A DNA stretch of 44,682 nt from Bacteroidaceae bacterium (GTDB lineage: Bacteria > Bacteroidota > Bacteroidia > Bacteroidales > Bacteroidaceae), in the NCBI GenBank assembly GCA_017541265.1, contig JAFXZK010000124.1, forward strand, positions 1 to 44,682. The letters run 5' to 3'. How positions within the stretch are numbered: the first letter of the stretch is position 1; each line of letters begins with the position of its first letter. Under the pieces are notes generated by a model. The model searched no databases and was not told the DNA's origin. It saw only the letters and a program-made list of their open reading frames with translations. This document shows positions 8,774-44,682 of this stretch, in pieces. A program made the position numbers and the translations under genes.

Positions 8774-8910
8774 TTTTATGGAACACAAGGACATGTTTTA
8801 TGGAACGCAAAGACCATTTTTATTTAACTCAACACAAAGACGCAAAGACACAAAGGTTTAGGTATGCTTGCATGGACGCGAAGCCCTTCGTGTCTTCGTG
8901 TCTTTGTGTT
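8774..8910. repeat. Direct copies plus long imperfect hairpin of ACAAAGAC-type repeats
   Basis: Two direct copies of TTTTATGGAACnCAAnGAC (8774-8792 and 8796-8814) are followed by an imperfect inverted repeat. The left arm at 8831-8856 is built from CACAAAGA/CGCAAAGA/CACAAAGG units and the right arm at 8885-8910 is its near reverse complement. The first copies also match, inverted, the GTCTTTGTGTTCCGTAAAAC stretch ending near 8919. This is most of the 513-base gap between the GH27 gene and the next gene; the remainder is the 22-bp array at 8938-9003, a terminator and a GC-rich palindrome. Confidence 0.85.
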
Positions 8911-20504: not shown

Positions 20505-20604
20505 GTCCCCGTTCTTATGGCGATAAGTACAGGGACTTATGGTGATAAGTACAGGGACTTATTGGAATAAGTACAGGGACTTTTGGCGGCATGTGCAGGG
20601 GCTT
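20505..20604. repeat. 22-bp hairpin array 2
   Basis: Four complete 22-bp units (20505-20526, 20527-20548, 20549-20570, 20571-20592) and a partial fifth. Each junction forms a hairpin ACTTAT-nnnn-ATAAGT with a 6-base linker ACAGGG. The first GTCCCC and the GGGAC of unit 2 add a second, outer pairing. The array starts 27 bases after the esterase stop. The gap to the next gene (20478-20750) otherwise holds only AT-rich leader and a -7 box. Confidence 0.92.
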
Positions 20605-40746: not shown

Positions 40747-40763
40747 AACAAGGGAAACACTCC

Positions 40764-40837
40764 GTGCCTAGTTTGCCAATTAGGCGTGTTTAGTTTGCCA
40801 ATTAGGCGTGCCTAGTTGCCCAATTAGGCGTGCCTCG
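40764..40837. repeat. 22-bp hairpin array 3
   Basis: Three full 22-bp units (40764-40785, 40786-40807, 40808-40829) and a partial fourth. Each forms GCCTAGTT-tgcc-AATTAGGC with one G-T pair per stem and a GT linker. In unit 2 two C-to-T changes keep G-T pairing on the plus strand. The array ends 26 bases past the aroB stop codon. Confidence 0.93.
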
Positions 40838-40863
40838 TTTTTTGTCACTCTTTGGATAGACTT

Positions 40864-42363: not shown

Positions 42364-43089
42364 ATGTTAGAAGCATTAAAGGAAAAAGTATTCAAGGCAA
42401 ACCTTGATTTGGTGAAGCACGGATTGGTCATTTTCACATGGGGAAACGTCTCCGGCATAGACCGTGAGAAGGGTCTCGTAGTCATCAAGCCGTCGGGTGT
42501 GAGCTACGACGAGATGAAGGCCGAAGATATGGTGGTCGTGGACCTTGCCTCGGGTAAGGTCGTGGAAGGCGACCTGAACCCGTCGTCGGACACTCCCACA
42601 CACCTTGTGTTGTACAGGGCATTCCCGGAGATTGGAGGCGTCGTCCATACCCACAGCACCTACGCCACCGCTTGGGCACAGGCAGGCAGGGACATTCCAA
42701 ACATCGGAACGACACACGCCGACTACTTTCACGACGCCATTCCCTGCACCCGCAACATGAAGAAGGCAGAGGTCTTCGGCGAGTATGAGAAAGAGACAGG
42801 AAACGTAATCGTGGAACGCTTCAAAGATATGAATCCTAACGACACGCCCGCTGTGCTGGTGCGCAACCATGGTCCCTTCGCTTGGGGAACAGACGCGGAC
42901 AATGCCGTACACAATGCCGTTGTCCTGGAGGAAGTGGCGAAGATGGCGTTCATCTCATCTACCCTGCACCTCAACACACTCGACATTGTGGACCACGTTC
43001 CCTCAATGAACAAGCTCCTCATCGAGAAGCACTACAGCCGCAAGCACGGCCCCAATGCCTACTATGGCCAGAAAGGACAAACTCACTAA
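42364..43089 (+). CDS. araD: L-ribulose-5-phosphate 4-epimerase
   Basis: 241 residues, a class II aldolase-fold epimerase converting L-ribulose 5-phosphate to D-xylulose 5-phosphate, the last step of L-arabinose entry into the pentose phosphate pathway. Motifs: [44 protein letters not shown], the metal-binding [37 protein letters not shown] and the end [12 protein letters not shown]. Length and motifs match AraD fully. It has its own promoter. araA lies 682 bases downstream on the same strand, and the space between is occupied by a GxxExxY gene with repeats. Confidence 0.97.
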
Positions 43090-43094
43090 AGCTT

Positions 43095-43142
43095 TTCACA
43101 AATTAGGATAAATAACAATTCATAAATTGAGATAAATATGAC
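43095..43142 (+). repeat. 24-bp repeats upstream of the GxxExxY gene (two direct units)
   Basis: Units at 43095-43118 and 43119-43142 share TTCAnAAATT and GATAAAT. The second unit contains the GxxExxY start codon (43138-43140). Same family as 43576-43623 and 43653-43724. Confidence 0.85.
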
Positions 43143-43569
43143 AAGGCAAGAATACATGGATATGTATGATGCTGTAGGCGTGGCAATGGAGGTTTATAAT
43201 ACGCTTGGCAGATGCTTGGACGAGCACATCTATCAAGAAGCATTCGCTATCGAAGCGAATATGCGAGGTATGGACATTGAGCGTGAGAAGAAACTTAGCC
43301 TTGCCTACAAAGGTATCGAACTTCAAAAAGTATTCTTTGCCGACTTCTATTATAAAGGAATTATCATTGAGTTCAAATCTGTGGAAGAATTAGCTTCCGT
43401 GCATCGTGCGCAGTTACTTAATTACATGCGTATTTCCAACCAAGACAGGGGTATTCTCTTTAATTTTGGTGAAACCAACTTGCACTCAGAACGCTATCTC
43501 TATCTCCCCGAAGAGGACGATTTTGTCCTTCTCACACACGAGAATTACAGGTTCTACATCACCAACTAA
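43138..43569 (+). CDS. GxxExxY family protein (PD-(D/E)XK nuclease-like)
   Basis: 143 residues. The family signature appears as VYNTLGRCLDEHIYQEAF (usual form G-x-x-E-x-x-Y), followed by the nuclease-like core FADFYYKGIIIEFKSVEEL, where Asp, Glu and Lys fit D...(E)xK, then VHRAQLLNYMRISNQDRGILFNFG. The family is widespread and of unknown function; similarity to PD-(D/E)XK nucleases is established knowledge for PDDEXK_3. The gene starts 48 bases after the araD stop and ends 202 bases before araA. It is bracketed by 24-bp repeats, and its start codon lies in one. Codon use is more AT-rich than araD and araA, fitting later arrival. Its presence inside an arabinose operon is unlikely to reflect a metabolic role. 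Confidence 0.9.
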   Translation: MTRQEYMDMYDAVGVAMEVYNTLGRCLDEHIYQEAFAIEANMRGMDIEREKKLSLAYKGIELQKVFFADFYYKGIIIEFKSVEELASVHRAQLLNYMRISNQDRGILFNFGETNLHSERYLYLPEEDDFVLLTHENYRFYITN

Positions 43570-43575
43570 TTCCTT

Positions 43576-43724
43576 TACACGAATTGCGATAAATACTATT
43601 ACATTAATTGGGATAAACAGTTTCCAACTAAATATATGTGTAATCATTCAGGTAATAAATTATCACAATTTGTGGAATGTAATTTATCATAATTAGTGAA
43701 ATGATATTTCTCCCAATTAGTGAA
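43576..43724. repeat. 24-bp repeats downstream of the GxxExxY gene (two direct, three inverted units)
   Basis: Direct units: 43576-43599 and 43600-43623 (AATTGCGATAAAT, AATTGGGATAAAC). Inverted units: 43653-43676, 43677-43700 and 43701-43724 (minus-strand reading CACAAATTGTGATAAT, CACTAATTATGATAAAT, CACTAATTGGGAGAAAT). Together with 43095-43142 there are seven units, plus units pointing toward minus units. Confidence 0.87.
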
Positions 43725-43771
43725 AAAGAGAGAACAACCATTTATTTACTAATAATTAAAAGATAACATTT

Positions 43772-44682
43772 ATGACAAAAGCATTTGAGAATTTAGAGAT
43801 TTGGTGGGTGACTGGTGCGCAGTTGCTCTATGGTGGCGACGCAGTGGTTGCAGTTGACGGACACAGCAAGGAGATGGTCGAGGGCTTGAACGCCAGCGGC
43901 AACATCCCCGTGAAGATTGTGTATAAAGGCACAGCCAACAGCAGCAAGGAAGTTGAGGCTGTGATGCTCGCCGCCAACAACGATGAGAAGTGCGCAGGCA
44001 TCATTACCTGGATGCATACCTTCTCGCCTGCCAAGATGTGGATTAAGGGCCTGCAGCAGCTGCAGAAGCCTCTGCTTCACTTCCACACACAGTACAACGC
44101 CGAGATTCCCTGGAGCGAGATTGACATGGACTTTATGAACCTGAACCAGAGCGCCCATGGTGACATCGAGTTCGGGCACATTTGCACTCGTATGCGTGTG
44201 GCTCGCAAGGTGGTTTGCGGCTACTGGAAGGACGAGAAGGCTCAGAAGCAGATTGCTGTTTGGGCGCGTGTGGCTGCCGGTGTGGCCGATGCCAAGAACG
44301 TGCGCTGCCTGATGTTCGGCATGAATATGAACAACGTGGCCGTGACCGACGGCGACCGTGTGGAGTTCGAGCAGCGTATGGGCTATCATGTTGACTATTA
44401 CCCCGTCAGCAGCTTGATGGAGTATTACAAGAAAGTAACAGAAGCTGAGGCCGACGCACTCGTTGAGGAGTACAAGAAGCTCTACACCATCAAGATTGAC
44501 GAGAGCGGTGAGGCTGTCTATTGGGAGAAGGTAAAGAACTCCGCCAAGGCCGAGATTGCTCTTCGCCGTGTGCTGAAGGATGAGGGCGCTACGGCTTTTA
44601 CTACCAACTTCGACGACCTGGGCGATGCCAACATCGACGACCCGAACTTCTGTGGCTTCGACCAGATTCCCGGCCTTGCCTC
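43772..44682 (+). CDS. araA: L-arabinose isomerase, 3' end outside window
   Basis: 303 complete codons are visible from ATG at 43772 to the window edge (the full enzyme is about 500 residues). It isomerises L-arabinose to L-ribulose with Mn. Motifs: NLEIWWVTGAQLLYGG, ITWMHTFSPAKMWIKGLQ, LHFHTQYNAEIPW, NLNQSAHGDIEFGHI and FGMNMNNVAVTDGDRVEF, where the Glu belongs to the active site. The C-terminal metal ligands lie outside. Together with araD it supplies arabinose catabolism, consistent with the arabinose-targeting GH43 type enzyme at the other end of the window. No -7 box was found just upstream, so it may be read from the araD promoter through the GxxExxY insert. Confidence 0.97.
   Translation, partial: MTKAFENLEIWWVTGAQLLYGGDAVVAVDGHSKEMVEGLNASGNIPVKIVYKGTANSSKEVEAVMLAANNDEKCAGIITWMHTFSPAKMWIKGLQQLQKPLLHFHTQYNAEIPWSEIDMDFMNLNQSAHGDIEFGHICTRMRVARKVVCGYWKDEKAQKQIAVWARVAAGVADAKNVRCLMFGMNMNNVAVTDGDRVEFEQRMGYHVDYYPVSSLMEYYKKVTEAEADALVEEYKKLYTIKIDESGEAVYWEKVKNSAKAEIALRRVLKDEGATAFTTNFDDLGDANIDDPNFCGFDQIPGLA

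Follow-up and report, generated by a model that had tools for sequence, protein, structure and literature searches.

A GxxExxY nuclease gene bounded by short-repeat arrays between araD and araA: a candidate selfish cassette in Bacteroidota

The genes for L-ribulose-5-phosphate 4-epimerase (araD, 42364-43089, plus strand) and L-arabinose isomerase (araA, 43772-44682, plus strand, cut by the contig end), both identified as ORFs with profile matches, stand 682 bp apart in the window, which is the entire 44.7-kb contig analysed here and part of a 3.24-Mb draft genome of a gut bacterium (143 contigs, 87% complete). What occupies this gap, and do its parts belong together? A sequence-only reading had placed in it a GxxExxY nuclease-like gene and seven 24-bp units (a direct pair on either side of the gene, then three inverted units ahead of araA), and the coordinates agree. 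The gene (43138-43569, plus strand) encodes 143 amino acids. Pattern matching finds unit 1 (TTCACAAATTAGGATAAATAACAA, 43095-43118) and unit 2 (TTCATAAATTGAGATAAATATGAC, 43119-43142) ahead of it on the plus strand, the second containing the start codon at 43138, as had been noted from the letters. Units 3 (43576-43599) and 4 (43600-43623) follow in the same orientation, and units 5 (43653-43676), 6 (43677-43700) and 7 (43701-43724) are inverted, on the minus strand, with one mismatch to the core pattern in units 5 and 7. Matches to that core start at 43095, 43119, 43576 and 43600 on the plus strand and at 43659, 43683 and 43707 on the minus strand, with 24-bp spacing within each run. Since two of the downstream units are direct, the arms of this copy are not a simple inverted pair.

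Chance is ruled out as the source of the seven units, because the core TNCANNAATTNNGATAAA, allowing up to two mismatches, has seven matches in the whole window, all at araD-araA, against 0.69 expected, with none of 100 shuffles reaching seven. The gene is also AT-rich relative to both neighbours, as previously remarked, with a G+C content of 41.4% compared with 54.0% for araD and 54.6% for the available part of araA; the two spacers are at 20.8-24.3%. An Rfam scan of the window gave a single match, a tRNA. The explanation we favour is that the 0.63 kb from 43095 to 43724 are probably a selfish cassette, in which a PD-(D/E)XK nuclease gene is bounded by inverted arrays of its own putative recognition repeats.

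GxxExxY proteins are common, and to our knowledge their function is not known. The window protein belongs to the GxxExxY/PDDEXK_3 family by both of its profiles (PF13366, E 4.7e-30; TIGR04256, E 1.3e-30), with scores of 104.8 bits (cut-off 22) and 106.1 bits (cut-off 35), and this is the sole family that it matches in Pfam and NCBIfam at E 0.001; no transposase family matched the encoded protein. Its predicted structure (pLDDT 96) finds Cas4 SSO0001 as the best solved match in Foldseek (E 2e-4), followed by lambda exonuclease (E 8.5e-3), and the protein is evidently a full PD-(D/E)XK domain. The active-site residues D69, E78 and K80 are intact in the window, and among 81 sequences E78 and K80 are present in all and D69 in 80. 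In a set of 24 close pairs, five of them without usable dS, dN/dS was below 0.08 in 16 of the 19 computable pairs; the remaining three gave 0.13-0.26, all with dS of 0.11 or less. The conserved catalytic residues together with low dN/dS indicate that the nuclease is kept intact. Phage T7 endonuclease I was considered as a relative, but its profile match (E 0.22) is not significant and was given no weight.

The generality of the arrangement was addressed by an arm test, in which the 250 bp before a gene were compared with the reverse complement of the 250 bp after it, and a locus passed if its score exceeded those of all 60 dinucleotide shuffles. The genus set comprised the 60 best matches, not all matches, less one locus with no downstream flank (L081), one partial locus (L090) and one whose gene is identical to that of L040 (L099). 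Of these 57 loci, 46 passed, or 47 with fresh shuffles, whereas the controls passed in 0/30 cases for araD genes and 3/68 for neighbour ORFs. Two of the twelve loci in the window's clade failed (L076 and L077), the contig of the latter passing with wider flanks, as L166, by 0.5 point only. A direct-orientation version of the test was passed by 27/57 GxxExxY loci of the genus, because some flanks, those of the window included, carry units both ways.

A scan of 84,980 species genomes yielded at least 497 relatives of the window's GxxExxY type, and inverted arms, with 300-bp flanks, were found in 80/80 of the best 80 of these, for L166 and L185 by half a point only. These 80 loci, many of which share a site and nine of which were taken as the same contigs as genus loci, come mostly from Prevotella, Prevotellaceae and Bacteroidaceae drafts, many from ruminants. 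The pattern is general, and one outcome that would have spoken against the sequence-only reading, repeats missing next to all other GxxExxY genes, did not occur. GxxExxY genes are present in 152/296 Bacteroidota genomes sampled, and 23 of the 30 best loci across the phylum passed the arm test. Passes were fewer on plasmids (2/6, both Bacteroidota, the six being drawn from 8 plasmid records); the other four plasmid loci, from Sphingomonas, Fusobacteria, Treponema and Gemmatirosa, did not pass, although repeats of a similar type can be seen alongside by eye; in this cross-phylum test a locus with a broken frame (L257) and one with the start placed too far in (L276) were counted as failures. On a Sphingomonas parapaucimobilis plasmid (L273), a GxxExxY gene lies in sense orientation between fabD and fabG at an operon-like junction, with flanks that fail the inverted-array test.

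The sequence of the unit varies by GxxExxY lineage. The window has TTCACnAATTnnGATAAAT, several loci at pta-ackA and kduI have GAAACGAATnnGAATAATnnGAATAAT, and elsewhere CACTAATGCGCAAGAATA, ACGGATT, CACAGAG and others are found; the exact unit TTCACNAATTNNGATAAA is present in 8/139 genus genomes. The proposed test of whether GxxExxY genes genome-wide carry the window's exact unit failed in the strict sense, for the only other PF13366 match in the genome, a truncated gene on contig 50, adjoins a CACGGATT-type repeat. The TTCACnAATTnnGATAAAT unit is that of one lineage and not GxxExxY-wide. The truncated gene (L002, at 20275) lies before the gene for 2-oxoacid:acceptor oxidoreductase beta, with its CACGGATT-type repeats in opposite orientations.

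Is the type of unit tied to the nuclease or to the site? Between pairs at different loci, mean array similarity rises from 13.5 at 50-60% nuclease identity (875 pairs, background) to 29.9 at 75% identity or more (12 pairs). The correlation of array similarity with nuclease identity across different loci is 0.36 (rho) under a conservative definition of the site, which over-merges kduI and pta-ackA, and 0.53 under a loose one, in which some loci with a flank in common were treated as different, with 0/500 permutations as high in each case. In the 23 loci that precede ackA, identity between nucleases does not track identity between the AckA proteins (rho -0.05), and the arrays follow the nuclease (partial rho 0.71) rather than AckA (-0.13). 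At 24 loci before kduI, the nuclease partly follows KduI (rho 0.30; 10/500 permutations as high), and here too the arrays go with the nuclease, with a partial rho of 0.56 against 0.01 for KduI; the conservation of the two neighbours (median 0.90 for AckA, 0.88 for KduI) limits their resolving power in both comparisons. Array similarity thus tracks nuclease sequence more than genomic site. Part of the spacer sequence is shared too: across 17 loci, the two arms agree better at spacer positions than shuffled partners (0.72 versus 0.40), in a test that forces motif identity and does not separate models.

The earlier reading had proposed a search for empty sites at araD-araA in related strains. The araD-araA junction is empty, with 17-35 bp and no insert, in 7 of 30 loci found through araD (L103, L104, L107, L111, L112, L114 and L117), and in two of these (L103 and L104) araD is ~95% identical to that of the window. 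The window alone among the 30 has a GxxExxY gene at araD-araA, one further locus (L118) breaks off within an array whose units are of the same kind, and the GxxExxY search yielded three more cases at this junction (L131, L132 and L134). The arrangement is accordingly not fixed. On an araD tree with ten labelled rows, the distribution of the GxxExxY label calls for three or more gain or loss events, a number that label shuffles often match or undercut (248/500). Similarly, the pta-ackA gap is empty (27-52 bp) in 16/30 ackA loci, with GxxExxY in 0/29 of those that have pta, and measures 547-718 bp in the ten GxxExxY-bearing loci compared (nine distinct, L075 and L143 being taken as one contig). 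The empty junctions at both places carry no array. Comparison by eye with the empty junctions revealed no target-site duplication or exact insertion border, the borders being blurred. CACTAA, a hexamer similar to the head of the array unit, closes some araD genes; it stands at the stop of araD in clades whose protein ends ...KGQKH, while the window's araD (43066-43089) ends ...KGQTH and most of its closest relatives end ...KKK.

Copies at different sites give a second view of the unit's extent. Among 67 pairs with different context labels, the 24 closest were compared, of which 18 share flanking sequence and six lie at unrelated loci (L130/L131, L130/window, L176/L183, L133/L135, L179/L183 and L153/L170). 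In those six, collinear homology covers only the arrays and the gene, as in L130/L131, where it runs from -170 to +73. Genome G003 contains a pair of copies with 93% identity over 1.0 kb whose surroundings differ save for short repeat pieces, the duplicated element belonging to a divergent GxxExxY lineage (36% identity). The G003 copies (L281 on C36 and L282 on C15) have a different end structure from the window's type, one of them adjoins a partial copy, and several solo fragments lie nearby. An apparent second copy in G030 proved to be a duplicated contig (99.98% over 8.7 kb) and was dropped. For the window copy, the only intact one in its genome, no recent insertion was caught. Comparison supports the view that array, gene and array are mobile as one unit.

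The host junctions, identified by profile, include pta, ackA, kduI (5-dehydro-4-deoxy-D-glucuronate isomerase) behind a galactitol-type PTS IIC gene, 2-oxoacid:acceptor oxidoreductase alpha and guanylate kinase. Because the kduI and pta-ackA junctions account for 51 of the best 80 loci, the element either moves rarely or is drawn to few sites. Where the flanking genes are codirectional, the cassette of the window's clade lies in sense orientation in 16/16 contexts (of 33 distinct, p 3e-5), and other GxxExxY loci do so in 19/26 (of 45), with some neighbour ORFs in these tables being antisense miscalls. In other species, the araD-araA (L101, L106 and L127) and pta-ackA junctions (L217, L221, L223 and L228) carry 23S_rRNA_IVP-like genes between inverted iterons, assigned to TIGR02436/23S_rRNA_IVP by NCBIfam in L106, L127, L217 and L221 and by Pfam in L106, L127 and L221. 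The flanks of IVP-type genes had inverted arrays of their own repeats in 9/9 cases tested, including one in which the ORF was picked antisense (L109); L232 gave no ORF. Two unrelated gene families, GxxExxY and IVP, thus have a common architecture and common landing sites. A third kind of insert at araD-araA is short and rich in C and G runs, several being of the CCCCCTCGGGGG type (L105, L108, L110, L115, L123, L125 and L126).

The window's unit is also found on 11 contigs without a PF13366 match, namely C17 and C97 of its own genome, C18, C20, C64, C80 and C83 of G018, and single contigs of G032 (C26), G071 (C6), G073 (C116) and G124 (C42). By eye, some of these gene-less occurrences are inverted arrays, some are unidirectional and two consist of one unit each. 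The GxxExxY gene of G059 has a second array at a distance of 3.4 kb. Three gene-less elements of ~150 bp, two from the window's genome (C17, 7764-7905, L003; C97, ~137-289, L010) and one from G032 (L045), contain the window's units and have hairpin ends (CGGTCATTAG...CTAATGACCG) that the window copy lacks; the 11-base terminus occurs in the window's own genome only on C17 and C97.

Based on these comparisons, the cassette and the linkage of array to gene are well supported, and we infer that the nuclease would recognise the arrays and move the unit. In such a mechanism, the nuclease would bind its own type of array as DNA and would cut at the bound array, perhaps where the inverted arms fold into hairpins or cruciforms. 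Cutting would then promote the copying or movement of any DNA between matching arrays, and solo arrays would represent non-autonomous copies. Sense insertion at operon junctions would be tolerated, with the gene co-transcribed there. The sequence-only reading had proposed a self-propagating cassette; the cassette is well supported by empty sites, homology bounded by arrays, array-gene linkage and gene-less arrays, while self-propagation or homing is the conjectural part.

The inverted arms could instead act at the level of RNA. In an mRNA-level intervening sequence, the arms would fold in the transcript to a stem around the gene and RNase III would remove the stem, as in 23S rRNA intervening sequences, such that the arrays would be kept for RNA pairing and insertion into an operon would be harmless; the Coxiella intervening sequence is reported to be excised by RNase III (PMC4990558). 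The window RNA from 43085 to 43771 does fold, at z -6.0 (20 shuffles), with its arms paired, and arm-to-arm pairs reach a median of 53 in 81 loci compared with 14 when the flanks are shuffled, 77/81 loci forming at least 15 such pairs compared with 40/81. The sense orientation within operons, and the presence at the same junctions of 23S_rRNA_IVP genes with their own inverted iterons, fit this explanation as well. However, selection for RNA pairing is expected to tolerate G-U pairs, and the transition mismatches between arms are symmetric, with 169 G-U-compatible and 158 not (p 0.58), and 94 against 116 at other GxxExxY loci; this lack of G-U bias indicates, without proof, that the arrays are read as DNA. 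RNA pairing alone also does not account for a unit type that tracks the nuclease across unrelated sites, and we consider it an unlikely explanation. A domesticated regulator, whose protein would bind the arrays and regulate the host operon so that array and gene are kept as useful to the host, would be in keeping with the low dN/dS, with the many loci at kduI or pta-ackA and with the window unit that overlaps the start codon. It is quite improbable given that the same element type is found in unrelated operons, that the junctions are empty in many relatives and that, at pta-ackA, nuclease relationships do not follow the neighbour gene.

Could the nuclease be a bystander? Homologous recombination at the repeats, or the enzyme of another element, might move array and gene as passive passengers, the role of the nuclease being unrelated. 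We know of no transposase-like activity in the GxxExxY family, and the hairpin-ended solo elements (C17, C97 and G032) have terminal repeats that the window copy is without, both of which suit a passenger. Yet a nuclease that has nothing to do with the arrays would not be expected to co-vary with them in sequence, and homology between copies at different sites stops at or near the arrays, making this account, too, a rather remote one. A defence or toxin-antitoxin module that carries repeats by happenstance is suggested by PADLOC matches to Cas4 and Cas4b (window Cas4b E 9e-4), but the similarities found in PADLOC and PHROGs are weak and go no further than the nuclease fold, no second gene was seen inside the window arrays and the window protein had no match in phage records; such a module is very improbable.

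The favoured reading, a nuclease gene with arrays of its own, resembles several known systems in part. Homing endonuclease cassettes spread a nuclease gene into empty sites, and PD-(D/E)XK homing enzymes exist; in the present case, the empty sites are without the array and the element type is found at many unrelated sites. Insertion sequences and MITEs differ in that the protein encoded here matches neither a DDE nor any other known transposase. The REPIN/RAYT system (PMC3116915) pairs a small nuclease gene with adjacent short repeats that are specific to it, with inverted hairpin pairs, gene-less copies and apparent enzyme-repeat co-evolution. The cassette shares with it this pairing, an intergenic location, own-type inverted repeats capable of forming hairpins, gene-less copies and apparent co-evolution of enzyme and repeat. 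It differs in having multi-unit iteron arrays (9-24 bp units) and not REP palindromes, in the few gene-less copies of the window's unit per genome, and in the occurrence of the whole array-gene-array unit at different sites; since the enzyme has a PD-(D/E)XK fold and is not a Y1/HuH (IS200/IS605-like) transposase, the cassette is like REPIN/RAYT in outline and not a member. The 23S rRNA intervening sequences with S23/IVP genes (PF05635, TIGR02436; PMC4990558) likewise place a small ORF in a stem-forming insert. The GxxExxY protein, however, belongs to an unrelated family, its insert lies between araD and araA and not in 23S rRNA, and its arms give no sign of selection for RNA pairing. The BrickBuilt MITE of Porphyromonas gingivalis, also intergenic, from Bacteroidales and built of tandem short units, has 23-bp units, inverted-repeat ends, a leader and a tail, and the abstract of its description (PMC4596501) mentions neither a nuclease gene nor gene-flanking inverted arrays.

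It is tempting, though we lean slightly towards doubt, to see here a separate class of selfish DNA that is neither transposon, REPIN nor intron. Such a mobile unit would combine a minimal PD-(D/E)XK nuclease with an inverted iteron array matched to it, the recognition specificities of the two drifting in step and giving many mutually incompatible lineages per genome, with a parallel 23S-IVP four-helix class competing for the same junctions. In the open-access literature, 'GxxExxY' appears as a gene label in one paper and as a neighbour of a CRISPR-like reverse transcriptase in another. No description of array-bounded GxxExxY cassettes was found in the open-access full-text library searched; if the unit moves as it appears to, it would be a largely unrecognised kind of selfish DNA. 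If the arrays are recognition sites, GxxExxY function becomes directly testable, because each gene is accompanied by a candidate substrate and natural pairs of enzyme and array, of which there are dozens, could be swapped. One class of short intergenic repeats in Bacteroidota would then be accounted for as well, and it would be seen how nuclease elements settle within operons of central metabolism.

Other repeats were observed elsewhere in the window. A gene-less inverted array of ACACAAAG/ACGCAAAG units lies at 8774-8909, with a score of 24 compared with 14 or less in shuffles, and, because a similar unit flanks another GxxExxY lineage (L019), may represent a second family in solo form. Two short tandem arrays of 22-bp units are found at 20514-20588 (CTTATGGCGATAAGTACAGGGA) and 40763-40840 (CGTGCCTAGTTTGCCAATTAGG).
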